From: Planctomycetota bacterium
GTDB taxonomy: Bacteria > Planctomycetota > UBA1135 > GCA-002686595
DNA: 64,000 nucleotides
NCBI GenBank assembly: GCA_002683825.1
Contig: NYUD01000011.1
Span: forward strand, 62,001 to 126,000
Direction of reading: 5' to 3'
Of the stretch, positions 11,894 to 62,600 are shown piece by piece; position 1 is the stretch's first letter, and every line of letters begins with the position of its first letter. A program made the position numbers and the translations under genes. The notes below the pieces were generated by a model. That model worked only from the letters and a program-made list of their open reading frames with translations, had not been told where the DNA came from and did not search any database.

Positions 11894-14614
11894 ATGCCGC
11901 GTCTTTTCCTTCTCGACGGAACCGCCCTCGCCTACCGCTCTCACTACGCCCTCGCAAAGTCGACGTTGGCGACGGCCGACGGCACTCCGACGGGCGCGAC
12001 CTACGGCTTTGCGATGACGCTGCGGCGAATCCTGACGGAGGAAGAGCCCGACCTCTTCGCGGTCGCCTTCGACGCACCCGGGCCTACATTCCGGCACGAA
12101 CGCTACAAGGAATACAAGGCCACGCGCCAGAAAGCCCCGAGCGAGATGATCGCGCAGATGGAGTTCATCCGCGAGATCGTGCGCGCGCACGGTCTACCGA
12201 TCTTCGAGATACCCGGTTTCGAAGCCGACGATGTGATCGGCACGCTGGCGTTGGAAGGGGAAAAATCCGGCCACGAAGTTTTCTTGGTCACGGGCGACAA
12301 GGACTTCATGCAACTGGTGAGCGAGCGCGTAAAACTCTACAACGTCTTCCGCCCCGGCCAGCCGCCGGCCATTCAAGGACTGCAGGCGACGCGCGACAAA
12401 TTCGGCACAGCTCCCGACCGCGTGTGCGACGTCCTGGCCATCATGGGCGACTCGTCGGACAACATCCCGGGCGTCAAAGGCATAGGCGAGAAGGGAGCCA
12501 TCAAGCTGGTTTCCGAGTTCGATTCCGTCGCGGGGTTGCTGAAGCGCCTGGACGAGGTACCGGAGAAGACGCGTCGGAAAATCGAGGCCGATCTCGAGAA
12601 TCTCGAACTCTCGCGCGAGCTGGTCGTGATCAATACACAAGTGCCCCTCGATCCGGGGTTCGAAGCGATCACTCCCCCTGCTCCGGATGCGGCACGGCTG
12701 ATTCAGCTCTTCCGCGAGTTTGAGTTCGTCAGCCTGGTCGATCAGGTGGTTGCGGCTTCGCCGGAGGCTCATGACAGAGGCCAGCGCGACTACAACACCG
12801 TGACGGATCGGGCGGGGCTCGACGCAATGTGCGCAGAGCTCCATGAAGCCGGTTCGTATGCACTGGACACGGAAACGACCAGCCTGTTTCCGATGGAAGC
12901 CGAGATCGTCGGTATGTCCTTCTCCGCGGCGGAGGGCCGGGCGTGGTATGTGCCCTTCAACGCCGAGTCGCCCATCGTACCTGGAGGCAAGGCGGGCCTC
13001 ATCGACGCGCTACGCCCCTTGCTGACCGACCCCGGCCTCGAGCGCATCGGCCAGAACACCAAGTACGACTGGCTGGTCATGGGTCAACTGGGACTGGACC
13101 TTCCTGCCCCGACCTTCGACACCATGGTCGCCAGCTTCTGCATCTCCGGCGGCGAGCGGCGCACCCACGGCCTGGACGCCCTGGCGCTGTCGTACTTCGG
13201 GCTGAAGAAGATCCCCACGAAAGATCTGATCGGCACCGGCAAGAAAGAGATCACGATGGACCGGGTGCCTATCGCCCAGGTAGCAGAGTACGCGTGCGAG
13301 GACGCCGACGTTACCTGGAGGCTGGGCCGGGTGCTGGAGGCCGAACTGGAACAATCGAGCTCTTCTTCACTCTTTCACGATCTCGAAATGCCGCTCGTCC
13401 CGGTTCTCGGAGCGATGGAGGAGCGCGGCATCAAGATCGATTCCAAGCTGCTGGAGGACCTGCGCACGCAGATGGAAGCCGAGATCGAGGAGCTGAAGTA
13501 CTCGCTGCACGGCCACGCCGGTGAAAACTTCAACGTCAACAGCACCAAGGCCCTGGGCGAGATCCTCTTCGAAAAGCTCCGCATTCAAGAGCAGACCGGG
13601 GTCAAGCGCCCGAAGCGAACACGGACCGGCTGGGCCACCGACGCGGACTATCTCGCTGACAAGTACGGTGAGGTCGAGATCGTGAAGGACCTGCTCCTGT
13701 ACCGCGAGGTTCAGAAACTGAAGAGTACGTACGTCGACGCCCTACCGCGCTACGTGAACCCGAAGACAGGTCGCATCCACTGCTCCTTCAGCCAGGTCTC
13801 AGCCGCAACGGGCCGTCTGGCTTCCAGCGACCCGAACCTGCAGAACATCCCGGTTCGCTCCGAGCGCGGGCGCAAGCTGCGCGAGGCCTTCATCCCTCGT
13901 CCGGACGACGAGCGTGGAAAGTGGGTCCTCTTGGCCGCGGACTACAGCCAGATCGAACTGCGCATCCTGGCCCACCTGTCGGGGGACGAACACTTGCGGC
14001 GCACCTTCGAAGAGGGTCTCGACGTCCACGCAGCGACGGCGAGCCGGATCTTCAACGTGATGCCGGAAATGATCACGCGGGAAATGCGCTCCCAGGCAAA
14101 GGTCATCAACTTCGGCCTTCTGTACGGCATGGGCCCCTCGAGGGTGGCGCGCGAGACCGGACTGACGCTGGCCGAGGCACGCAAGTTCGTCGAGAAGTAC
14201 TTCGCGTCCTTCCCGACGGTCCGGGGGTGGATGGACAGCATCTTGGAAGGGGCCCGGAAGAACGGGTACGTCGAGACGTTGCTCGGGAGAAGGCGCAGGA
14301 TGGGTGAGGTGAACTCGACGAACTCGAGACTGCGAGCCTTCGCGGAGAACGCGGCCATCAACACGCCGGTTCAGGGTTCGGCGGCCGATGTCATCAAGCG
14401 GGCCATGATCGACCTCGAGGAGCGCCTGCAGGGATCGCAGCTGGCCGCAAGAATGCTCTTGCAGGTGCACGACGAACTGGTGCTGGAGGTACCGGAACGG
14501 GAGCTGGAGGACACGCGCGAGGTCGTGAGGAAGGCGATGGAAGAGGCGTGTGTGCTGGATGTGCCCCTGAAGGTCGATTTCGGATGGGGCCGAAACTGGC
14601 TGGAGGCGCACTAG
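11894..14614 (+). CDS. polA: DNA polymerase I
   Basis: 5' nuclease (FLLDGTALAYRSHYA, GDKDFMQL, GIGEKGA), 3'-5' exonuclease (ALDTETTS), Pol A motifs (DYSQIELRILAHLSGD, RSQAKVINFGLLYGMG, QVHDELVLEVP). Confidence 0.97.
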   Translation: MPRLFLLDGTALAYRSHYALAKSTLATADGTPTGATYGFAMTLRRILTEEEPDLFAVAFDAPGPTFRHERYKEYKATRQKAPSEMIAQMEFIREIVRAHGLPIFEIPGFEADDVIGTLALEGEKSGHEVFLVTGDKDFMQLVSERVKLYNVFRPGQPPAIQGLQATRDKFGTAPDRVCDVLAIMGDSSDNIPGVKGIGEKGAIKLVSEFDSVAGLLKRLDEVPEKTRRKIEADLENLELSRELVVINTQVPLDPGFEAITPPAPDAARLIQLFREFEFVSLVDQVVAASPEAHDRGQRDYNTVTDRAGLDAMCAELHEAGSYALDTETTSLFPMEAEIVGMSFSAAEGRAWYVPFNAESPIVPGGKAGLIDALRPLLTDPGLERIGQNTKYDWLVMGQLGLDLPAPTFDTMVASFCISGGERRTHGLDALALSYFGLKKIPTKDLIGTGKKEITMDRVPIAQVAEYACEDADVTWRLGRVLEAELEQSSSSSLFHDLEMPLVPVLGAMEERGIKIDSKLLEDLRTQMEAEIEELKYSLHGHAGENFNVNSTKALGEILFEKLRIQEQTGVKRPKRTRTGWATDADYLADKYGEVEIVKDLLLYREVQKLKSTYVDALPRYVNPKTGRIHCSFSQVSAATGRLASSDPNLQNIPVRSERGRKLREAFIPRPDDERGKWVLLAADYSQIELRILAHLSGDEHLRRTFEEGLDVHAATASRIFNVMPEMITREMRSQAKVINFGLLYGMGPSRVARETGLTLAEARKFVEKYFASFPTVRGWMDSILEGARKNGYVETLLGRRRRMGEVNSTNSRLRAFAENAAINTPVQGSAADVIKRAMIDLEERLQGSQLAARMLLQVHDELVLEVPERELEDTREVVRKAMEEACVLDVPLKVDFGWGRNWLEAH

Positions 14615-14689
14615 CCCCCGAATAATTCGGTGCTACGGGTCGGCCAGGCGGCTATCTTTTGGATACTTCTCGCTCGTCAGAAGGCCAAG

Positions 14690-15901
14690 ATGACTGGCGG
14701 GCCCCCCGACCGAACCAACCCCACGCGCAGCGAAATGGCAGAATCGCCCATTCAGGAGACCGTCGCCCAGGCAGAGAGGTTCCGGGTCGACCCGGAGCTC
14801 TGTATCGCCTGTGACGCCTGCTGTCAGGATTTTCCGGAAGTCTTCTACATGGGCGACGACCTGAAGGCGCACGCCCACGACGAGCATCCGGCCGAACTCT
14901 ATGACGCGCGCACGGTCGTCGACGTCTGCCCGACAACGGCCATTCTGTTCTCCGGGGAGCTGCCGCCGCCCGAAGATCTCTCCAAGCTCGAAGAGGTTCC
15001 CGGCTGGGAGCTCGAATGGGCCCGCTGGCGCGGCGTCGAAGAGAATCACGTCGAGCGGGACCGCCGCTATGGACGCGACTACTCCATCACGGAGGAGGAG
15101 GGCTACATCCACGTCCGCTTCCATTTGCCGACCCGGGTCCCGGCGGTACGCGATCGCTTCCGTTACGGGTTGCCCGAGGAAATGCCGCTCTACAAGGGAC
15201 ACGTGCAGCTCACGGGCAACAGCATCATGGTCGCGGGCTGGCTGACCGACCCCAAGGTACGCGCTCTGTGCCACACGTCCTCGTCCTTCCCGGCACAGTT
15301 CATGACGACCATAGACTTCAAGAAAGATCTCGTCGGCATCACCTCGCGCTACGACGCCCACTCCGAATTCGAGATCATCCTGTTCACGGATCCGGCCACG
15401 ATGGCGACATGGCAATGGAAGGCGCACTTCATCACGGACAAGTGCACCGCCTGTACGATTTGCGAACGGGTCTGTCCGACCAACGCCATCACTAGCGGCG
15501 AGATCTTCTATATCGATCCGGACCTTTGCATCAACTGCTCTGTTTGCGGTGTCTACTGCCCCTTTGACGCTATCGATGACAGCACCGACGTCACGGTCCA
15601 GCGCATCAAGGCAAAGAAAGTCCCCAAGGCCCTCGTGCACGAGGAGATGTGCACGGGCTGTGAATTCTGCGTCGATATCTGCCCCTTTGACGCGATCGTG
15701 ATGCAACCGGCCGAGGAGGGGATGGCTACGGACCACCCGCTGCCGCAGACGAGTCAGATCGCCGTGGTTCTCCCGAAGGCCTGCGTGTCCTGCAAGCTAT
15801 GCGAGCAGGTATGCATGAAGGACGCGATCGAGGTACCGAGGCAGCACCAGTTCCAGAACATCGGGATGAGCTTCATGAGCTACATCACCGATAATCACTG
15901 A
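14690..15901 (+). CDS. poly-ferredoxin-type iron-sulfur protein, five Cys clusters split by a beta-rich middle domain
   Basis: CIACDACC...CP; CTACTICERVCP; CINCSVCGVYCP; CTGCEFCVDICP; CVSCKLCEQVCM. Confidence 0.85.
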   Translation: MTGGPPDRTNPTRSEMAESPIQETVAQAERFRVDPELCIACDACCQDFPEVFYMGDDLKAHAHDEHPAELYDARTVVDVCPTTAILFSGELPPPEDLSKLEEVPGWELEWARWRGVEENHVERDRRYGRDYSITEEEGYIHVRFHLPTRVPAVRDRFRYGLPEEMPLYKGHVQLTGNSIMVAGWLTDPKVRALCHTSSSFPAQFMTTIDFKKDLVGITSRYDAHSEFEIILFTDPATMATWQWKAHFITDKCTACTICERVCPTNAITSGEIFYIDPDLCINCSVCGVYCPFDAIDDSTDVTVQRIKAKKVPKALVHEEMCTGCEFCVDICPFDAIVMQPAEEGMATDHPLPQTSQIAVVLPKACVSCKLCEQVCMKDAIEVPRQHQFQNIGMSFMSYITDNH

Positions 15902-15908
15902 TCGGCAC

Positions 15909-15948
15909 GGAGCCGGGCTCGACTTCCCATACGATCGAGCCCGGCTCC
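15909..15948. terminator. bidirectional intrinsic-terminator-like hairpin between convergent genes
   Basis: Perfect 14-bp inverted repeat ggagccgggctcga/tcgagcccggctcc with 12-nt loop between the poly-ferredoxin and BI-1 genes; no U-tract. Confidence 0.6.
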
Positions 15949-15955
15949 GCGTGTA

Positions 15956-16657
15956 TCAGTCGCGGCTGGTAAAGGACAACAAGAGCTGCAACACGTAAAA
16001 GAACATCAGCGCCACGGAGGCGAACAGCTGCAACGAAGCGGCAACGTAGCGGTCCTCCGGATAGTGATGAATGACGTTGGAGGTATCGTACAGAACCGCA
16101 GCGCCTGCGAAGAGGATCATTGCCACCGTGAACCAGGTTCCGAGCGCAAACGAAAAGAACATCGACGCGACGATGGCGATCAACGCACCGATAGCGATCC
16201 AGCGCAGCATCCCTCCCTGGAACGAGAAGTCCTTACGAGTCCAAAAAGCGATGAACGTGAGAACACCGAAGCCGGTCAAGGTGATGGCCGCAGCGCTGGA
16301 AATCACACCGTCCGCGTACCCATTCGCGATATAGAGCAGCGGGACGAAGATCAAGGCCTCGACCGCTACGAACGCGGCGAGCGCAAGGTACTGCACGACC
16401 ATCGACTTGGCCGTCGCCGCCGCCCGGGACCCCAGCCAGGAAACGAGCATGAAGGCGCCCAGGACGATGAGCCAGTTCTTCATGAGCGGCGCCGCGATGC
16501 TTGCGGCGACACCGCTTGAGAACAGGAAAAACTCGATCAGCGTGAAGGCGAGGATCGCCCCCAGCAGGTTGGTATAGGTGCGAACGATGAACGTCGCACG
16601 CGAATCGACATCGAGCTGGTCGACGGTACGGACTTCCGAGGCGTAGATGTTCTGCAT
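15956..16657 (-). CDS. Bax inhibitor-1/YccA family membrane protein
   Basis: Seven hydrophobic segments; family-like ending LYDTSNVIHHYPEDRYVAASLQLFASVALMFFYVLQLL. Confidence 0.88.
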   Translation of the reverse strand: MQNIYASEVRTVDQLDVDSRATFIVRTYTNLLGAILAFTLIEFFLFSSGVAASIAAPLMKNWLIVLGAFMLVSWLGSRAAATAKSMVVQYLALAAFVAVEALIFVPLLYIANGYADGVISSAAAITLTGFGVLTFIAFWTRKDFSFQGGMLRWIAIGALIAIVASMFFSFALGTWFTVAMILFAGAAVLYDTSNVIHHYPEDRYVAASLQLFASVALMFFYVLQLLLSFTSRD

Positions 16658-16696
16658 GGTATTGTTTCTCCCTTGCTTCCGAGGGACCCCGGAATG

Positions 16697-17947
16697 CTAC
16701 GGAACCTGCCCCTCGCTTTCGAGGCCCCCTTCGCTGGCACGGTCCCTGACCCGGTCCCGGGCCATGAGGCTCGCCGGAATCACGGCTCCGCGGCCGTAGC
16801 GCCTGCGGAGCGAATCGAGCGCCTTGGTTGCCCGCTCCATCCGTCCGTCTCCACCGTCGGGCCGCGCTACCTGCGGATCCCCCTGGTCGAACAGGTCGTT
16901 CTGGGCCGGTTCACGCACGTCCGACAGGTTGGAAACCTGTACGCCGATGAGTCGCACGGGGCCGGCAGGGACGCGGCGTAGCAATTCCCGCGCGGTAGAA
17001 TACAAGCGCTTGCCCATGTTGATCGGGTACTCGAGGGTCTTCGAGCGCGTGAGGGTCTTGAAGTTCCAGTACCGAATCTTCAGCGTGATCGTACGACCGC
17101 GTAAACCGCGGTGCCGCAGGTCCCAGGCGACCTCTTCGCAGAATTCGTACAGGATCAGACGCAGCTCCTCGCGGTCGGAGATGTCCTTGACGAAGGTGCG
17201 CTCCATCCCGTGGGACTTTTCGATCCGTTGCGAATGAACGCGCCGTGGGTCGATGCCATGGGCCAGATCGTGTATCCAGGCTCCGGAGGCGCCGAAGCGC
17301 TTCTGAACCTCGTTGCGCTCGCGCGAAGCGAGGTCCGCGACGGTCTTGACGCCCAGCGACTCCAGGCGCTTGGCCGTCCGTGGACCGACGCCGAAAATCT
17401 TCGAAACGGGTAGCGGATCCAGAACCGCGCGGACTTCGTCCTCCTGAATGACGCGAAATCCGTCGGGTTTGTCCAGATCGGAGGCGAGCTTGGCCAGAAA
17501 CTTCGAGGGCGCCACACCGATCGAGGCGACGAGCCCCGTTTCCTTCAGGATGTCCTCCTTGATGCGTCCGCCGATCTCGACCGCATCGCCGAAGAGCCGC
17601 TCGGTTCCAGTGGCGTCAAGGAACGCCTCGTCCAGGGACAGCGGTTCGACCACCGGCGTGTAGCGACGAAAAATCTCCATGATCTGACGGCTGACGCGCG
17701 TGTATTTGTCGAAGTCGGCGGGCAGGAGCACGAGGTCCGGACATAGCTTGAGCGCGCGTGCCGTGGGCATGGCCGAATGCACGCCGAAGCCGCGTGCCTC
17801 ATAGCTCGCGGCCGCGATCACGCCGCGCTGATCCGCGCGCCCCCCCACGCACACGGGGAGCCCTCGCAGATGGGGCTGGTCGCGGGTTTCCACGGACGCG
17901 TAGAAGGCGTCCATGTCAACGTGAAGAATGCGCAGAGGTTCGCTCAA
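16697..17947 (-). CDS. dinB: DNA polymerase IV (Y family)
   Basis: ILHVDMDAFYASVE, SLDEAFLD, SIGVAPSKFLAKLASDLDKPDG; start codon appears to be TTG. Confidence 0.95.
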   Translation of the reverse strand: MSEPLRILHVDMDAFYASVETRDQPHLRGLPVCVGGRADQRGVIAAASYEARGFGVHSAMPTARALKLCPDLVLLPADFDKYTRVSRQIMEIFRRYTPVVEPLSLDEAFLDATGTERLFGDAVEIGGRIKEDILKETGLVASIGVAPSKFLAKLASDLDKPDGFRVIQEDEVRAVLDPLPVSKIFGVGPRTAKRLESLGVKTVADLASRERNEVQKRFGASGAWIHDLAHGIDPRRVHSQRIEKSHGMERTFVKDISDREELRLILYEFCEEVAWDLRHRGLRGRTITLKIRYWNFKTLTRSKTLEYPINMGKRLYSTARELLRRVPAGPVRLIGVQVSNLSDVREPAQNDLFDQGDPQVARPDGGDGRMERATKALDSLRRRYGRGAVIPASLMARDRVRDRASEGGLESEGQVP

Positions 17948-18064: not shown

Positions 18065-19099
18065 ATGCGTTTCAAAAACGTGCGTATCGCCGCCGTAGGC
18101 CATGCTCTGCCCGAAGAATGCGTGACCTCTGCGGCCATCGAGCTGGAATTGCGACCCCTGTACGAACGCTTTCGGCTGCGCGAGGGCAGGCTCGAGCTGA
18201 TGAGCGGAATCCGCGAACGGCGCTTCTTCGAGCGCGGCACGCGCCCCAGCACCGCGGCCGCCCGGGCGGGCGCCCAGGCCCTCGAAATGTCGGGGCTGGC
18301 GCGCGAAGATATCGGTTGTCTCATCCACGGCGCCGTGTCGCGCGACTTCCTCGAACCGGCCACGGCCGCGGTCGTGCATCGTCTGCTGGAGTTGCCCGAC
18401 GCCTGCATGGTGTTCGACCTCTCGAATGCATGCTTGGGCGTATTGAACGGCATGGTACTGATTGCCGGCATGATCGAGCGCGGCGAAGTCGAGGCCGGCA
18501 TGGTCGTCACCGGAGAGGAGGGGCGCGGGCTGGTCGAGGAAACCATAAAGGATCTACTGGCCTCGAAGACCCTCGACAAGCGCGATTTCAAGCACGCCTT
18601 CGCGTCGCTGACGATCGGATCGGGGGCGGCCGCGGTCGTTCTACAACGCGCGGAGGGAAGGCGAGGTCGGCGCCTGATCGGTGGCGCAGTCATGTCTGCT
18701 ACCGAACACAACGTGCTTTGTCGGGGGGACAGTACCTACGGCAGCGGCGGCCCGCTGATGACGACCGACTCCGAGGCCATGCTGCAGGCAGGCAACGACC
18801 TCGCCGGCCGCAATTTTGAACGCTTCTTGGAAGCGATGCAGTGGACGCGCGACGACATCGATCGGGTCATCACACACCAGGTTGGATCGGCCCACCGACG
18901 GTTGCTATTCGAAACCCTGCAGCTCGACATGAAGCGCGACTTCCCGACCATCGAGACCCTGGGCAACGCCGGCTCGGCAGCCCTGCCGATGTCGCTTTCC
19001 CTGGCCCTCGAGACGGGCTTTATCCAACAAGATCAACGGGTCGCCTTGCTGGGCATCGGCAGCGGCCTGAACTGCATGATGCTCGGGCTCGAATGGTGA
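18065..19099 (+). CDS. 3-oxoacyl-ACP synthase III-like (KAS III/OleA-type thiolase fold) enzyme
   Basis: Active-site SNACLG, ITHQVGSAHRR, ETLGNAGSAALP, GIGSGLNCMMLGLEW. Confidence 0.88.
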   Translation: MRFKNVRIAAVGHALPEECVTSAAIELELRPLYERFRLREGRLELMSGIRERRFFERGTRPSTAAARAGAQALEMSGLAREDIGCLIHGAVSRDFLEPATAAVVHRLLELPDACMVFDLSNACLGVLNGMVLIAGMIERGEVEAGMVVTGEEGRGLVEETIKDLLASKTLDKRDFKHAFASLTIGSGAAAVVLQRAEGRRGRRLIGGAVMSATEHNVLCRGDSTYGSGGPLMTTDSEAMLQAGNDLAGRNFERFLEAMQWTRDDIDRVITHQVGSAHRRLLFETLQLDMKRDFPTIETLGNAGSAALPMSLSLALETGFIQQDQRVALLGIGSGLNCMMLGLEW

Positions 19100-20097
19100 A
19101 ACGCGACTGGAGGCGCACGAGCGACGCCAAACTCCAGACGATACGTCTGCGCGATCTACGTCTGAAGATCAAAGACAGTCCTTTGCAAGGGCGCATCGAA
19201 AGGCTCTATCAGGAACTTTCCCGTCGGGGGATCGAGTTTCGGCCGCACGTTTGGTTTTCGACCGATTGGTTCTCGCCCGACAGCGTGCCGGGGATCGCCG
19301 TGCCCTTCTACCTGGGACATCCGCGCCTGGCGCACTTCGAACGCCGACGGCACGTCATCGCGGAGGGCTGGAACGAGCGCGAGTGTATGCAACTCCTGCG
19401 CCACGAGGCCGGACATGCGATCGACACCGCCTACGGACTGGCCCGGCACGCCGCCTGGCGCGAGGCTTTCGGACCGCGCAACGCACCCTATCACGGGACG
19501 TACCGGGTCAATCCCTTCTCCCGCGACCACGTACGCCACCTGCCCCGGTGGTACGCCCAGAGCCATCCGGCCGAGGACTTCGCGGAGACCTTCGCTATCT
19601 GGCTCTCCCATGGCACGCGGCCAGGGAAGCCGGGGACCCTGGCGAAGCGCAAACTGGAGCTGGTCGCACACTTGATGCGCGACGTCTGCGGTAGGCAGCC
19701 CAAGGGCCTCCTGCGCGAACGCCCCTACTCGCTTGCGAAGTCGGTAATAACACTCGGTGAGCACTACCTTCGCAAGGAGAAGGCACGCGGTGGCGATCCT
19801 GCGCCGCCCTTCGAGCCATTCCTGGTCCGCTATGCCCAGCCCGGAGCAGCCCGCGGTCGCAGCAGGGTAGCGGCACACGTAATACGCCTGAAGCCCGGGG
19901 TGCGAGCATCCCTCGAGCGCAACACAGCGGCACTGCACTACGACATCGATCAGATCCTCGACGGCATGGTCTCGAACGCGCGAATGCACGGCCTCCGGTG
20001 GAAAACACGGCACCGTCCCCGGGCGGCGGAGCTCGCGGCCTGTGTACGCACGTGCTGGAACAAGCTTCGGCGGGGAACCACGTTCCTCCCGCGTTAG
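19093..20097 (+). CDS. putative zinc-dependent metallopeptidase
   Basis: LRHEAGHAIDTAYGL (HExxH) followed by WYAQSHPAEDFAETFAIWL (candidate Glu ligand region); starts inside the 3' end of the KAS III-like gene. Confidence 0.8.
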   Translation: MVKRDWRRTSDAKLQTIRLRDLRLKIKDSPLQGRIERLYQELSRRGIEFRPHVWFSTDWFSPDSVPGIAVPFYLGHPRLAHFERRRHVIAEGWNERECMQLLRHEAGHAIDTAYGLARHAAWREAFGPRNAPYHGTYRVNPFSRDHVRHLPRWYAQSHPAEDFAETFAIWLSHGTRPGKPGTLAKRKLELVAHLMRDVCGRQPKGLLRERPYSLAKSVITLGEHYLRKEKARGGDPAPPFEPFLVRYAQPGAARGRSRVAAHVIRLKPGVRASLERNTAALHYDIDQILDGMVSNARMHGLRWKTRHRPRAAELAACVRTCWNKLRRGTTFLPR

Positions 20098-20267
20098 TCC
20101 GCAGTCGTAAGGTTCTACGCAAACGGGGCAGGAGTTTGGCCCTGAGAACGCAAAGAGAGCCACATGCTCCCTGCTTGTTTCCGACTTCGTCATATCAGAC
20201 CCCTTGTACTCCAACCCCAGAGGTGGTGAGGTCTAGGCGCTCCTCTTCCACCCACAGCTCGTTCACC

Positions 20268-21359
20268 ATGACTCCTTCCACGTCTTCGCTGACCAAGAGC
20301 CGCAAGAAGAGCGGCAAGGCGCGCACCAAGCACCGCCGGGTGCTGATGATCTGTCACAACGACCTCGTCCCGCCGGATTCCATCCGCGGCCTGTCCGACG
20401 AGGACATATCCGAATGGCGCACCGAGTTCGATGTGCTGTCGACCATGCGTGATCTGAACTACGAGATCGAGGTTCTCGGCGTCGGTGACGATATCGACGT
20501 GATCCGCAAAGCGATCGAGGGATTCAAACCGGAGGTCTGCTTCAATCTGATCGTCGAATTTCTCGGGGCAGCCAACTATGACCAACACGTCGTCAGCTAT
20601 CTCGAGCTGCATCGCCAGCCCTACACCGGTTGCAACCCGCGCGGCCTGACGCTGTCGCGCGACAAGGCGCTTTCGAAGAAAGTCCTTGCCTGGCACGGCT
20701 TGCCCGTGCCGAAGTTCGGCGTGTTTCCGATGAACCGCCGGGTACGTCGCCCGAAGGAGCTGGAGTTTCCCCTGTTCATCAAGTCGTTGAACGAGGAGGC
20801 GTCACTCGGCATCTCGCAAGCCTCCATCGTTCACGACGACACTAGACTCGAACAGCGCGTGCGCTTCATCCACGAGAAGGTCGGCACCGACGCGATCGCC
20901 GAGGAGTACATCGAGGGGCGCGAGTTTTACATCGGCATCCTGGGCAACGATCGGCTGGAGGCGCTGCCGCTGTGGGAGTTGAACATCCCCAACTTGCCCG
21001 AGGGCGCACCCCGGATCGCCACACGCCGGCTGAAGTGGGACATCCCCTATCAGCGCTCGCTGAAGGTGAAGAACCGCCGCGCAACGGACCTTTCCGTAAA
21101 GCTCGAAGCCAGCATCCAGCGGGCCGCCAAGGACGTCTACCGAGCCCTGGGACTTTCCGGTTTCGCTCGCCTCGACCTGCGCATGCGTCCGGATGGACGC
21201 TTCTACTTCCTGGAAGCCAATCCCAACCCCGACCTGACCTACGGCGAGGACTTCGCGGAATCGGCCGAAGCCGCCGGCATTCCCTATGAAACCTTGATCG
21301 AACGCATCGTCGATCTGGGTGTGCGCTACCCGGTCGAGTGGAGGCACGGGACCTCCTGA
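20268..21359 (+). CDS. ATP-grasp ligase (D-alanine--D-alanine ligase-like)
   Basis: FPLFIKSLNEEASLGIS, AEEYIEGREFYIGILGN, SGFARLDLRMRPDGRFYFLEANPNPDLT. Confidence 0.88.
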   Translation: MTPSTSSLTKSRKKSGKARTKHRRVLMICHNDLVPPDSIRGLSDEDISEWRTEFDVLSTMRDLNYEIEVLGVGDDIDVIRKAIEGFKPEVCFNLIVEFLGAANYDQHVVSYLELHRQPYTGCNPRGLTLSRDKALSKKVLAWHGLPVPKFGVFPMNRRVRRPKELEFPLFIKSLNEEASLGISQASIVHDDTRLEQRVRFIHEKVGTDAIAEEYIEGREFYIGILGNDRLEALPLWELNIPNLPEGAPRIATRRLKWDIPYQRSLKVKNRRATDLSVKLEASIQRAAKDVYRALGLSGFARLDLRMRPDGRFYFLEANPNPDLTYGEDFAESAEAAGIPYETLIERIVDLGVRYPVEWRHGTS

Positions 21360-25935: not shown

Positions 25936-27303
25936 ATGGTTTCGAACGCGGCCAAGAGGAGCCTCATTACGAAGGAACAACAAGAACGGCCCCGGGGAAA
26001 ACCGGACCGGCTGGGTCCGACCCTCGCAGCCGCGCTCCTCTTGGCGGTTTCCGGGCCCGACACCCGCGATCCCCAGGATGGGCCCCACGCCGACGTGCGC
26101 ATCACCATCCACGACGAGGGTGTGCGCGTGAACCTGATCGTAAATCTGGCCTTCGTGGACGAGGTGGTCGACGTGCCGCGCGAAAGCCCGAATGAACTCT
26201 ACCAGGTCGAGCGGGATCTCTTGCGGGAAGTACTGGAGGCCCATTTCCGGGAGAGCATCGCAGTCACGATCGACGATGTCTCGGTTGCACCGCTCTTCAG
26301 CGAGTTCGATGCCCCTGAACCGGACGTGCAGCTATTGCCGCTCTTCCCGCGCACGGGCATGCGCGCGCTCCTGCGGCTGCGTTTTGGCATCGACTATCCC
26401 TGCGACAAGCCGCCGCGCGTCGTGAAGCTAGAGTGGAGCGACTATCCGCCCAATCCGATCATGGAAACCGAGGAAGGCATCCCGTCCCTGGAGGTCGGGG
26501 CCCTCGTGTCGGGCTACGGTACCCACCGCATGGTTCGCTTCAACGAAGACGAGCCGGAGTACACGTGGCACTCCAGCGGACTTTCCCTCGATGATCTGTT
26601 CAGGAACGTCCCCGCGCCGCCGACTCAAGCCCGGATCGAGGTTTCGATTCCAACACTTTCGCTGATCGTGGTCTATCTGCTCGCGCTCGGCTTCGGCGCC
26701 GTTCGCGGGTCGCTACGGCGCGTACTCACCTTCTTTCCCCTGGCGATCGGGGGAGGCGTTCTCGCCTGGAACGTCGGCCGCGTGAGCATGGCGGACCCCC
26801 GAGGCGACGGCCCGGTGCTCGACGAACAGGCCGCACGCACAGCGCTCGAGCCCTTGCTCGCCAACATCTATCGCGCTTTCGACTACAGGAAAGAGAAGGA
26901 CGTCTACGATTCCCTTTCGAAAAGCGTGGCCGGGGATCTCCTGGATCGGCTCTATCAGCGCATCTACGAGAGCCTCGTCTATCAAGAGGCGGAAGGGGCC
27001 GTTGCGCGGGTGCAACGCTTCGAACTCCTCGATTGCTCACTCGGAAAAACGTTCGAGCGCGAAGGCGCACTCGCCTTTGAGATCGGCGCGAGCTGGCAAG
27101 TGGAAGGTGGGGTCTATCATTGGGGGCACACCCACAGTCGCCTGAACGAGTACCAGGCGAACTATACGATCGCGGATATCGAGGGCAGCTGGCGCATCGT
27201 GGAAGAGGAGGTTCTTTCAGCCACGCGCATCGACTCCAATCCCGACGAGGGTTTCGCGGACGCACTGGAAGAGGAATGGATCGCACCGGATCAGGAATTT
27301 TGA
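25936..27303 (+). CDS. exported/membrane-anchored protein of unknown function (extracytoplasmic N-domain, central TM, C-terminal NTF2/Tim44-like domain)
   Basis: N-terminal and central hydrophobic segments (VSIPTLSLIVVYLLALGFGAVRG); C-domain YRAFDYRKEKDVYDSLSKSV...WRIVEEEVLS; overlaps the start of the ABC ATPase. Confidence 0.7.
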   Translation: MVSNAAKRSLITKEQQERPRGKPDRLGPTLAAALLLAVSGPDTRDPQDGPHADVRITIHDEGVRVNLIVNLAFVDEVVDVPRESPNELYQVERDLLREVLEAHFRESIAVTIDDVSVAPLFSEFDAPEPDVQLLPLFPRTGMRALLRLRFGIDYPCDKPPRVVKLEWSDYPPNPIMETEEGIPSLEVGALVSGYGTHRMVRFNEDEPEYTWHSSGLSLDDLFRNVPAPPTQARIEVSIPTLSLIVVYLLALGFGAVRGSLRRVLTFFPLAIGGGVLAWNVGRVSMADPRGDGPVLDEQAARTALEPLLANIYRAFDYRKEKDVYDSLSKSVAGDLLDRLYQRIYESLVYQEAEGAVARVQRFELLDCSLGKTFEREGALAFEIGASWQVEGGVYHWGHTHSRLNEYQANYTIADIEGSWRIVEEEVLSATRIDSNPDEGFADALEEEWIAPDQEF

Positions 27304-27968
27304 CCTTCGCCCTGCGGGATCTCGTCTGGCGTTATGCCGGCGCTGATTTCGAGCTACGGGTCGATGAATTGGCAGCCCGAAGGGGCGAGGCGGTGGCCTG
27401 TATCGGCCCCAGCGGCTGCGGCAAGACGACCCTCGTGCACCTGATCGCCGGCATTCTGGTCTCCAACAACGGCACGGTCCAGCTGGACGGCACCGACCTC
27501 TCGACGCTCAACGAACGCGAGCGACGCGCGCGCCGGATTCGCACGATCGGGATGGTGTTTCAGGAGTTCGAGTTGCTTGAATACCTGAGCGCACTGGACA
27601 ACATCCTGCTCCCCTATCACGTCGCGGACGAGCTGCAACTGGATGCCGATGTGCGCGGTCGGGCACGCGAACTGGCGAGCGAAATGGGAATCTCCGATCT
27701 CCTGGCCCGCAAGCCCAAGAAACTTTCACAGGGCGAGCGCCAGCGGGTCGCGCTTTGCCGTGCGCTGGTGACTCAGCCGAAGCTTCTCATCTGCGACGAA
27801 CCGACGGGCAACCTCGATCCGAAGAATGCAGAGACGATCGTCGAGCTACTCCTGAGGCAGGCCCGGGAGCACGCAGCAACCGTATTCATGGTGACCCACG
27901 ACCACGGTCTGCTGAAACGCTTCGATCGCGTGGTCGACGTACGCAATCTCAACGGGAGAGACGCGTGA
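27276..27968 (+). CDS. ABC transporter ATPase (LolD/MacB-like)
   Basis: Walker A GPSGCGKTT, LSQGERQRVALCRAL, Walker B LLICDEPTGNLD, H-loop VTHDH. Confidence 0.93.
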   Translation: MDRTGSGILTFALRDLVWRYAGADFELRVDELAARRGEAVACIGPSGCGKTTLVHLIAGILVSNNGTVQLDGTDLSTLNERERRARRIRTIGMVFQEFELLEYLSALDNILLPYHVADELQLDADVRGRARELASEMGISDLLARKPKKLSQGERQRVALCRALVTQPKLLICDEPTGNLDPKNAETIVELLLRQAREHAATVFMVTHDHGLLKRFDRVVDVRNLNGRDA

Positions 27969-29134
27969 AGGGCGTCCTTCGCTTGTCCTGGCTGCACGCT
28001 TGGCACCACAAGGCTGCCACGGGGATTTTGATCTCGTGTCTCGGGTTGACCGCCTTGCTTCCCGCAGCGACGCGAGTCGTGGTGGAGCGTTACGGAGAAG
28101 ACCTGACGGCACGCGCACGGGCCACGCCGCTGGTTCTGGGGCCGAAGGGCAACCGCTTCGACCTGACGCTCGGCGCCCTCTACTTCAGCGCCAGCTCCCT
28201 GGATACCGTGCCCTACGCCCTGGTGCGCGAGATCGCTGCGGGGGGAGACGCGACTCCGATCCCCATTTCGAACCGGTTCACGGCTCGCGGTAGACCGATC
28301 CTCTGCACGTCGCCCGAGTACTTCGCACTTCGAGGGCTTACCGCCCGCACGGGAACGCCCCCCCTGCGGGTCGGCGATGCGGCACTGGGAGCTCGCGCCG
28401 CCGAGCAACTCGGACTCGCGGTCGGCGATACGCTGCCCTCGGACCCTACCGCCCTGTACGACCTCTCGAAACCCGCATCCTTCGGTTTGCACATCACCGG
28501 CATCTTCGAAGCGAACGGTACGGCCGATGACGAGGCGATCTTTTCCGACGTGAAAACCGCCTGGGTGCTGGAGGGCATTGCCCACGGCCACGCCAAGACC
28601 GACGAACTCGACAACAACCTGATCGTCGACCGCAGCGCGGGCAACGTCGCTCTTTCGGGCGCCCTGATCGAGCACACCGAAGCCACGCCGAAGAATCTGG
28701 AGGACTTCCATGTCCATACGGGTGAAGACCGGCTGCCCTTGACGGCCATCATCGTCCTGCCGCGGGATGACCGCGCCGACACGATCCTGAACACGGGCTT
28801 CAACCTCAGAGAAAAGTTGCAGATGGTGCGGCCGCGGGAGGTGATCGACGATCTCCTGGCCATCGTCTTCAGCATTCGGCGGTTGATCGATCTGATTTCA
28901 CTCGTGCTGGGAGCCGCCACGATCCTCCTGACCGTGCTGGTGCTCATGCTTTCCTCAAAGCTGCGGGCACGCGAGCGCGATACGCTGCACAAGATCGGGT
29001 GCGCCCCGGGCGCCGTCGCCCGTCTGCTTGGCTACGAGATCCTCCTGGTGCTGGGTACGAGCCTTATCCTCGCCTCGGTGGGAACGGCTGCGGTTGCCCG
29101 GTTCGCCCCGAGCCTCACCGCAACGATGAGGTAG
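27965..29134 (+). CDS. FtsX/MacB-like ABC permease, short form
   Basis: N-terminal TM, large extracytoplasmic domain, then two hydrophobic segments (LIDLISLVLGAATILLTVLVLMLSSKLRARERD; LLGYEILLVLGTSLILASVGTAAVARF); GTG start overlapping ATPase stop. Confidence 0.82.
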   Translation: MKGVLRLSWLHAWHHKAATGILISCLGLTALLPAATRVVVERYGEDLTARARATPLVLGPKGNRFDLTLGALYFSASSLDTVPYALVREIAAGGDATPIPISNRFTARGRPILCTSPEYFALRGLTARTGTPPLRVGDAALGARAAEQLGLAVGDTLPSDPTALYDLSKPASFGLHITGIFEANGTADDEAIFSDVKTAWVLEGIAHGHAKTDELDNNLIVDRSAGNVALSGALIEHTEATPKNLEDFHVHTGEDRLPLTAIIVLPRDDRADTILNTGFNLREKLQMVRPREVIDDLLAIVFSIRRLIDLISLVLGAATILLTVLVLMLSSKLRARERDTLHKIGCAPGAVARLLGYEILLVLGTSLILASVGTAAVARFAPSLTATMR

Positions 29135-29141
29135 AAGCGAC

Positions 29142-30059
29142 ATGATGAAAGCAAGCCTCGCACTTTTTTCCGCACTTTTCGCGGCGGCGTGCGCACACGA
29201 CGCCCCCGAAGCGGAGGCCGCCGCGCCGCCGCGCGTCGCGACGAGCTTCTATCCGCTGACCTATTTTGTCGAAACGATCGCGGGGAATGAGCTCGAGCTC
29301 TTCACGCCGGTTCCAGCGCAGGCGGATCCAGCGCTCTGGAAGCCGGATACGGATGCGCTGCTCGCCCTGCAGGAGGTCGATCTGATTCTCTTGAACGGCG
29401 CGGGCTTCGAACAGTGGGTCTCGAAGGTCAGCTTGCCCGAGAGCCGGGTCATCTACACGGCCGACAGCTTCCGCGAGACGTGGATCGGCCACGACGAGGA
29501 GTCCCATTCCCACGGTGGACTCGCACCCCATTCCCACGGCGCCATCAACGGACACACCTGGGTAGACCCGGTTCTGGCCGAGCGACAGGCCGAGGCCATC
29601 TTCGCTGCGCTCCTGGAACGCTGGCCGGATCGACGCGCCGCCTTCGAAGCGGGCCTCGCAAGCCTCAGGGCACAGCTCGCCGAGCAGGAGCGCCTCTGGA
29701 GGGATCTGTGCTCGCGCCTGCGAACGGCGGCGGTCCTCGCATCGCACCCCTCCTACGACTATCCCATCCGAAGCTGTGGAGCGCGCATCGAGAACTTCGA
29801 CCTCGACCCGGCGGCGCCGCTTTCCGCGGCCGAACTCGATGAGATCCTTCTACGAGCGGGCGAAGGTGTACCGAGGCTCATGCTCTGGGAATCCGAACCC
29901 CAGGCGGCCACACGCGCGGTTCTTCTCGAGCACGGCATAGAGAGCGTGGTCTTCGAAACGGGTGAGGCGCTCGATGACGCGGAGCTCGCCCAGGGGCGGA
30001 ATTTCCAGACGCTCATGCTCGACAACCTGAAACGACTTGCCGAAGCGCTCGGCAACTGA
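29142..30059 (+). CDS. metal ABC transporter substrate-binding lipoprotein (ZnuA-like, His-rich loop)
   Basis: Lipobox-like FAAACAH; VATSFYPLTYFVETIAG; His-rich GHDEESHSHGGLAPHSHGAINGHTWVDPVLAERQAE. Confidence 0.88.
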   Translation: MMKASLALFSALFAAACAHDAPEAEAAAPPRVATSFYPLTYFVETIAGNELELFTPVPAQADPALWKPDTDALLALQEVDLILLNGAGFEQWVSKVSLPESRVIYTADSFRETWIGHDEESHSHGGLAPHSHGAINGHTWVDPVLAERQAEAIFAALLERWPDRRAAFEAGLASLRAQLAEQERLWRDLCSRLRTAAVLASHPSYDYPIRSCGARIENFDLDPAAPLSAAELDEILLRAGEGVPRLMLWESEPQAATRAVLLEHGIESVVFETGEALDDAELAQGRNFQTLMLDNLKRLAEALGN

Positions 30060-61409: not shown

Positions 61410-62600
61410 CTAGGCCGCCTGTGCCTGGCCGGGCGATTCCTCAACGCCGAAGGGCCGAACGCTCGCCAGCGTAAAGCGGAAGTGCGCTCCCTCGCCCGGT
61501 TCGGATTCGACCCAGATCCTCCCGCCGTGCCGTTCGACGACGGTCTTGCAGATCGACAGCCCGATCCCATTCCCCTTGAACTCCATTCGAGAGTGCAGCC
61601 GCTTGAAGGGGGTGAAGATGGAGTGCACGTATTTCGAATCGATGCCGATGCCGTTGTCGCGTACACCTATGACGTGTTCATCACCAACGAGCTCATAGGT
61701 AAAGTGCAGCCTTGGAATTTTGTCGCGCACGAACTTCAAAGCGTTCCCCGAGAGGTTCTGTAACATCTGCGAAATGAGGCCGGGATCACCATGGATGGTC
61801 GGCAATTCGTCGATCAGAACCTCGGCCCCCGTCTCTTGGATACACAGACTGAGCGTGTTCATAACTTCAGTCACGCAGTCCTTGAGGGGAACCTTGACCC
61901 ACTGCATCATCGAGTTGCCTGCTCGCGAAAGCCGCAAGAGGTCTTCGATCATTCGGCTCATGCGCGAGGCCGAATCTCGGATGTAGTAGATATCCTGCGT
62001 GACAGCCTCGTCCAGCTTATCGCCGAGGTCTTCATTCAGAAGATCGCTGAAGGCCAGCAGTTTGCGCAGGGGTTCCTGCAAATCGTGGCTGACTTGATAC
62101 ACGAACTCGTCCAGTTCCCGATTCTTGTTTGCGAGCTCCGTGTTGGATGACTCCAGCTCGACGGAGTGACACCGCAGCTCCTGGGTCATCTGCCTGAGGA
62201 GACTCTCCCGGTTGTGCGAGTCGGAGATGTCCTGTACCTCCAGCAGACAATAGCGTTGCCCGTTGCTGGCCCGGATGCTACGGACGGTCAAGGAGTGAAT
62301 CAGCCACTTGCGTGGATTCTCGGCATCCCGCAGGGGTAGCGGATGTGGGGCGAAGGCGTGCGAACGACCAGCGAAGGAACTTCCGTCCAGGGACTTGCCA
62401 ACGACGCGCAGAAGCCGTCCTGACAGTTGGTGACGCGACCCAAAAGCCTCACTGAGAGGCTTCCCGATCACCTTCTCGGTCGCTCGACGGGATCGGTCCT
62501 CCATCCAGCGATTCCAAAGGCAAACACGGCCGGCCGCGTCGAGCAATATTTGCCCGTACATCGTCTCGTGAACGATTTGCCGGTAGACCGCGTGATCCAT
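61410..62600 (-). CDS. PAS-domain sensor histidine kinase
   Basis: PAS-like N-terminus; H-box VYQVSHDLQEPLRKLLAFSDLL; N-box LSGNALKFV; VRDNGIGID, GNGIGLSICKTVVERHGG. Confidence 0.93.
   Translation of the reverse strand: MDHAVYRQIVHETMYGQILLDAAGRVCLWNRWMEDRSRRATEKVIGKPLSEAFGSRHQLSGRLLRVVGKSLDGSSFAGRSHAFAPHPLPLRDAENPRKWLIHSLTVRSIRASNGQRYCLLEVQDISDSHNRESLLRQMTQELRCHSVELESSNTELANKNRELDEFVYQVSHDLQEPLRKLLAFSDLLNEDLGDKLDEAVTQDIYYIRDSASRMSRMIEDLLRLSRAGNSMMQWVKVPLKDCVTEVMNTLSLCIQETGAEVLIDELPTIHGDPGLISQMLQNLSGNALKFVRDKIPRLHFTYELVGDEHVIGVRDNGIGIDSKYVHSIFTPFKRLHSRMEFKGNGIGLSICKTVVERHGGRIWVESEPGEGAHFRFTLASVRPFGVEESPGQAQAA

Follow-up and report, generated by a model that had tools for sequence, protein, structure and literature searches.

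Three consecutive open reading frames, for a thiolase, a putative zinc metallopeptidase (PEP) and an ATP-grasp ligase (GRASP), raise the question of whether their products serve one pathway or two. The locus lies in a stretch of 64,000 nucleotides (the window), which corresponds to positions 62001–126000 of contig 1 of a 5.4 Mb draft genome. The features are as follows.

16697..17947, minus strand: gene for DNA polymerase IV; divergent from the adjacent oleA, for which it serves as synteny anchor within the family
18065..19099, plus strand: gene for a predicted OleA-type thiolase, earlier called KAS III-like; 344 aa; from NF006720, PDB 3fk5/3row and residues
18353..18355, plus strand: OleA-specific glutamate E97, followed by Pro; Glu117 of Xanthomonas OleA by alignment, invariant; role from PMC7064751
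18431..18433, plus strand: predicted OleA nucleophile C123; Cys143 of Xanthomonas OleA by alignment
19093..19099, plus strand: overlap of oleA stop and PEP start, ATGGTGA, 7 bases; repeated in the relatives G034 and G007
19093..20097, plus strand: gene for the putative zinc metallopeptidase PEP; 334 aa, distant Peptidase_Mx, predicted cytosolic
19402..19416, plus strand: HEAGH zinc motif, PEP residues 104–108; H104, E105 and H108 invariant in the alignment
19573..19596, plus strand: EDFAETFA motif, PEP residues 161–168; E161, D162 and E165 invariant, constant spacing from HExxH
20268..21359, plus strand: gene for the predicted Ddl-fold ATP-grasp ligase GRASP; 363 aa from ATG; PF07478 (92.9 bits) and Foldseek
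21213..21257, plus strand: GRASP motif EANPNPDLTYGEDFA, in place of the Ddl second-substrate motif (ETNTLPGMTSHSLLP in the genome's own Ddl)

Organisation of the locus

The three frames lie on the same strand. The initial annotation had reported that the first two genes overlap and that the ATP-grasp gene follows in the same direction. The overlap amounts to the 7 bases at 19093–19099 (ATGGTGA; ...GAATGGTGA...), and an identical junction was found in G034 and G007, where the PEP stop also overlaps the GRASP start. In the window, PEP and GRASP are separated by 170 bases, GRASP running from its likeliest ATG at 20268 (homologues start near 20334) to the end of its frame at 21359. The peptidase signature HEAGH...DFAETFA, likewise reported before, is present at residues 104–108 and 161–168 of PEP. 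Chance is excluded, since each of the three proteins has homologues in many genomes, and we infer that oleA, PEP and GRASP are co-transcribed as one operon.

Upstream of oleA, the window carries genes for PolI, a multi-cluster ferredoxin-like protein and DNA polymerase IV (11894–17947), an order that is kept across many genera of the family.

Assignment of the first gene product

The first gene product had been described as a KAS III-like enzyme. It scored 419.5 bits against the NCBIfam model NF006720 (cutoff 285), a model that is itself named 3-oxoacyl-ACP synthase III; the identification as OleA rests on the PDB match, the catalytic residues and the pathway partners. The closest solved structures are those of Xanthomonas campestris OleA (PDB 3fk5/3row; E about 1e-64), matched over the full length. 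The catalytic set of E97, C123, H271 and N301 is kept in 30 of 30 family homologues, and E97 precedes P98; a mechanism using this glutamate (Glu117-Pro) is described as unique to OleA among the characterised members of the thiolase superfamily (PMC7064751). No second OleA homologue was detected in the window genome at E 1e-30.

That the protein is an ordinary FabH-type KAS III initiating fatty acid synthesis is hardly credible. Membership of the thiolase superfamily is common to both enzymes and a weak resemblance to FabH models does exist, but these models gave less than 125 bits, all under their own cutoffs, and NF006720 scored about 300 bits above any of them. The OleA glutamate and the presence of OleB, OleC and OleD genes in the genome, and in the same cluster in relatives, also speak against FabH. 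Judged by its sequence, the gene at 18065–19099 encodes OleA, and the KAS III label is to be corrected.

Remaining genes of the Ole pathway

OleA would perform the first Ole step, the head-to-head joining of two long acyl chains to a beta-keto acid; conversion of this acid into a long olefin would fall to OleD, OleC and OleB. As in Xanthomonas campestris, partners for all of these steps are predicted in the genome, but the window oleA sits apart from oleBCD and overlaps PEP. Contig C25 carries both a block from an HTH to a PPTase gene (L190:9202-16273) and the OleB-OleC-OleD stretch (L191:8379-12027). OleC scored 608.6 bits against NF006754 (cutoff 478), and the model nearest to OleD is NF042422; no Ole protein of this genome reached the curated cutoff for OleD or for olefin beta-lactone synthetase, and OleD and OleB were assigned by best match and position.

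In most family members, with gene order read as far as the contig ends, oleA is followed by HTH, FabF, ACP, two CrtI-like flavoenzymes, FabZ, FabI, PPTase, OleB and OleC, so that the cluster contains FabF, ACP, FabZ, FabI, PPTase and the two CrtI-like enzymes as additions to the Xanthomonas campestris set. In G027 the order is KAS-PEP-GRASP-HTH-FabF-ACP-CrtI1-CrtI2-FabZ-FabI-OleB-OleC-OleD, and a FabG-like gene also occurs in the cluster of some relatives. The cluster is split in the window genome, PEP-GRASP having remained with oleA. The combination of OleBCD, the dedicated FabF-ACP-FabZ-FabI-PPTase set and two CrtI-like flavoenzymes was also observed in relatives (L193, L068).

From this gene content, OleA appears to be the entry enzyme of a long-chain olefin pathway that receives its chains from a dedicated fatty-acid-synthase set; for the OleA of Shewanella there is evidence for the use of ACP-bound chains (PMC6463001). 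The cluster partly resembles, by gene types, the ladderane-candidate clusters of anammox bacteria (PMC2649909, PMC4790861), which likewise combine FabF, ACP, FabZ and phytoene-desaturase-like enzymes in a planctomycete, but it has OleABCD instead. A ladderane pathway proper was set aside, as no radical SAM gene was recognised in the Ole/FAS cluster and Ole genes are present. If the assignments hold, a planctomycete lineage encodes every step of a long-chain hydrocarbon pathway and, with it, a dedicated fatty-acid synthase set and CrtI-like enzymes.

GRASP, a predicted Ddl-fold ligase distinct from Ddl

GRASP matched PF07478 with 92.9 bits, and its predicted fold is Ddl-like (Foldseek against Ddl structures, E about 1e-25). 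Its best curated Ddl match, NF002378, reached 119.8 bits against a cutoff of 243. The initial annotation had proposed a comparison of its substrate loops with those of Ddl and had left room for GRASP as the sole housekeeping Ddl. The latter is ruled out by a canonical Ddl elsewhere in the genome (G000:C60:12446-12940; 153.8 bits), situated beside a dapB-like gene. Alignment of GRASP with this Ddl showed DLTYGEDFA where Ddl has the second D-Ala motif GMTSHSLLP, and alanine in place of the first serine of GSSVG, at the Ser150 position. In E. coli DdlB, the former motif binds the second D-Ala and Ser150 is part of the catalytic triad. GRASP thus shares with the Ddl/Van ligases the ATP-grasp fold, the E-x-N motif and the ATP-grasp lysines, but differs in the second-substrate loop (DLTYGED for GMTSHSL) and at the Ser150 position, and scores far under every curated cutoff. 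On this comparison GRASP is a ligase of the Ddl fold but no Ddl.

Two more Ddl-fold ATP-grasp genes were found in tandem at L207:4133-7226 and L208:5234-7239; at L207 they adjoin genes for a GNAT acetyltransferase and a DUF3109 protein.

PEP, a putative zinc peptidase

PEP scored 26.3 bits against PF15887 (Peptidase_Mx), just below the gathering cutoff of 27, and 23 of 23 aligned PEP members matched this model at E 0.01 or better. The similarity covers the HExxH region, but about half of PEP, C-terminal to residue 171, falls outside the match. In 101 of 102 homologues, HExxH and the EDFAETFA-type motif lie exactly 57 residues apart, and E165 is the probable third zinc ligand. The zinc motif and the sub-threshold Pfam match point to peptidase activity. 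A search of the literature for Peptidase_Mx returned incidental mentions only and no function. The AlphaFold model of PEP (pLDDT 86.9) found nothing significant by fold among the solved structures (best E 1.6), and its sequence likewise matched none of them. A hydrophobic N-terminal segment or export signal is absent from both PEP and GRASP, which for PEP suggests a cytosolic enzyme.

Conservation of the PEP–GRASP pair

A profile search with PEP in named genomes, covering relatives of PEP rather than Peptidase_Mx as a whole, returned 393 relatives, and the best 80 were analysed. Adjacency was counted by tblastn, and genes in relatives were called by a simple codon-usage script. GRASP lies directly downstream of PEP on the same strand in 79 of these best 80 loci; at the 80th, the contig ends 133 bases past PEP. 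The hosts of these 80 belong to at least eight phyla (Planctomycetota, Acidobacteriota, Pseudomonadota, Nitrospirota, Nitrospinota, Myxococcota, Binatota and Eiseniibacteriota), many of them being metagenome bins for which individual phylum labels may be wrong. The adjacency of such metallopeptidases and ATP-grasp ligases in other bacteria, stated in the initial annotation, is borne out by these counts, and its confinement to close relatives is ruled out. Around the same 80 loci, no third gene recurred beyond clade level and oleA was found near none. An 11-member gene cluster near the pair was antisense to GRASP and was discarded as an artefact of gene prediction.

Within the family, 41 of 43 full-length PEP copies have GRASP within 1 kb on the same strand; of the two exceptions, one has an extra gene in between and the other is split over contigs. 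Full-length GRASP without adjacent PEP occurs in ten family genomes. The GRASP of G032, another member of the family, is identical to that of the named Planctomycetota contig L143, which places the window genome in this phylum. A paralogous set, PEP2 and GRASP2 (about 35–40% identical), is neighbouring in several genomes (L195, L196, L197, L198 and other family loci), usually in convergent orientation and, in some genomes, with other genes between them. The association outlives such a rearrangement, which is good evidence for cooperation of the enzymes, and adjacency across many phyla makes it very probable that they form one machine. Some genera have a TrpD-like gene of glycosyl transferase family 3 ahead of PEP2.

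PEP and GRASP constitute a two-gene module of their own with wide conservation. Such side-by-side occurrence of ligase and peptidase in at least eight phyla points to an unrecognised amide modification. Literature searches found no function assigned to the pair and no text naming ATP-grasp together with a zinc-binding metallopeptidase, and a PADLOC search for anti-phage defence systems gave no match for OleA, PEP or GRASP.

Possible function of the pair

Our best explanation, which we consider to have about an even chance of being right, is that the operon holds two units: OleA for the first Ole step, and GRASP and PEP as an independent maker and remover of an amide. GRASP would activate a carboxylate with ATP and join it to an amine, its substrate being something other than D-Ala-D-Ala. 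PEP, as a cytosolic zinc peptidase, would cleave this amide or one related to it, and the pair would in this way add and remove, or make and trim, a small amide-linked group on a cellular target. The division of labour is suggested by analogy with RimK and RimB, an ATP-grasp ligase that adds glutamates and a protease that takes them off again (PMC11957791). The likeness is one of gene-level logic, in which an ATP-grasp ligase has a peptidase of its own consistently beside it, and is meant as 'works like', not as membership; RimB is an aspartic protease whereas PEP carries a zinc motif. RimK belongs to another ATP-grasp subgroup. Two findings weigh against a maker and remover: the ten family genomes with GRASP but no adjacent PEP imply that PEP is not always needed, and the PEP model lacks a significant structural match. 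The making and trimming of an amide had already been put forward in the initial annotation; as a general idea it is still the best one, and the pairing behind it is real, while the individual roles are conjectural.

Alternatively, PEP may cleave a protein or peptide of the cell, and what is released may be extended, capped or cyclised by GRASP, the product being a small peptide and not a tag. This we regard as unlikely. A graspetide survey described two ATP-grasp branches, 7 and 8, that are strongly tied to peptidases and come without recognisable precursors, and its authors explained them in this way (PMC8939145); the present loci are alike in both respects, and full-length PEP in the family is almost always beside GRASP. 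On the other hand, the surroundings of the 80 loci (best 80 of 393) yielded no recurrent gene for a precursor, transporter or maturase, and a GRASP without PEP would be unexpected if PEP supplied the substrate.

Modification of an envelope component, as considered in the initial annotation, is disfavoured. Here GRASP would be an accessory D-Ala-D-X ligase acting on an envelope or peptidoglycan precursor, with PEP as its peptidase. The Ddl fold is compatible with this, and the best curated families of GRASP are Ddl/Van, all far under their cutoffs, but the second-site motif for D-Ala-D-Ala is absent and the serine position is replaced. Furthermore, PEP matched no known peptidoglycan peptidase in sequence and structure searches, neither protein has an export signal or hydrophobic N-terminal segment, and any third gene near the pair recurs at clade level at most (best 80 of 393). 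We therefore consider this very unlikely.

Linkage of the pair to oleA

If GRASP and PEP form an independent amide maker and remover, their position beside oleA calls for a separate account. The idea that the KAS III-like gene might travel with the pair did not hold: oleA is linked to the pair or to GRASP in 6 of the 42 genera of a single family. The GRASPs adjacent to oleA (window, G007, G023, G027, G033 and G034) form one clade (support 99/95), which makes a single origin of the linkage likely. The module would have been set beside oleA once, in an ancestor of the six genera, and would mostly have stayed there. In the OleA tree, the oleA-linked genomes fall into one group (94/96) together with G008, a genome without the linkage; G008 and G023 carry a sister copy of the pair elsewhere in the genome. 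In G023 only GRASP is beside oleA and the sole PEP is elsewhere, and in G033 GRASP is beside oleA while PEP was found nowhere. With the only PEP of some relatives in the clade located elsewhere, a role of the pair in the Ole pathway is possible, but a strict one is argued against.

In such a role, the pair would have been recruited in the oleA-linked clade to attach and remove an amino acid on a lipid derived from OleA. Its position between oleA and the remaining cluster in G027, G034 and G007, the start/stop overlaps in the cluster and the retention of PEP-GRASP with oleA at the split of the cluster in the window genome are all consistent with this. Nevertheless we hold it to be quite unlikely, considering that none of the 80 pairs from named genomes (best 80 of 393) is near oleA, that G008 lies inside the oleA-linked OleA group with its pair elsewhere, and that the PEP genes of G023 and G033 are displaced and missing, respectively. 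The fuller version, in which the pair is built into a pathway of OleABCD and the dedicated fatty-acid synthase and reversibly amino-acylates its long-chain OleA product, is highly doubtful; if true, it would mean a new class of amino-acylated membrane lipid from the OleA pathway.

Farther along the window, at 27276–30059, genes for an ABC ATPase, a permease-like protein and a putative metal-binding lipoprotein, as judged from their translations, follow one another consecutively.
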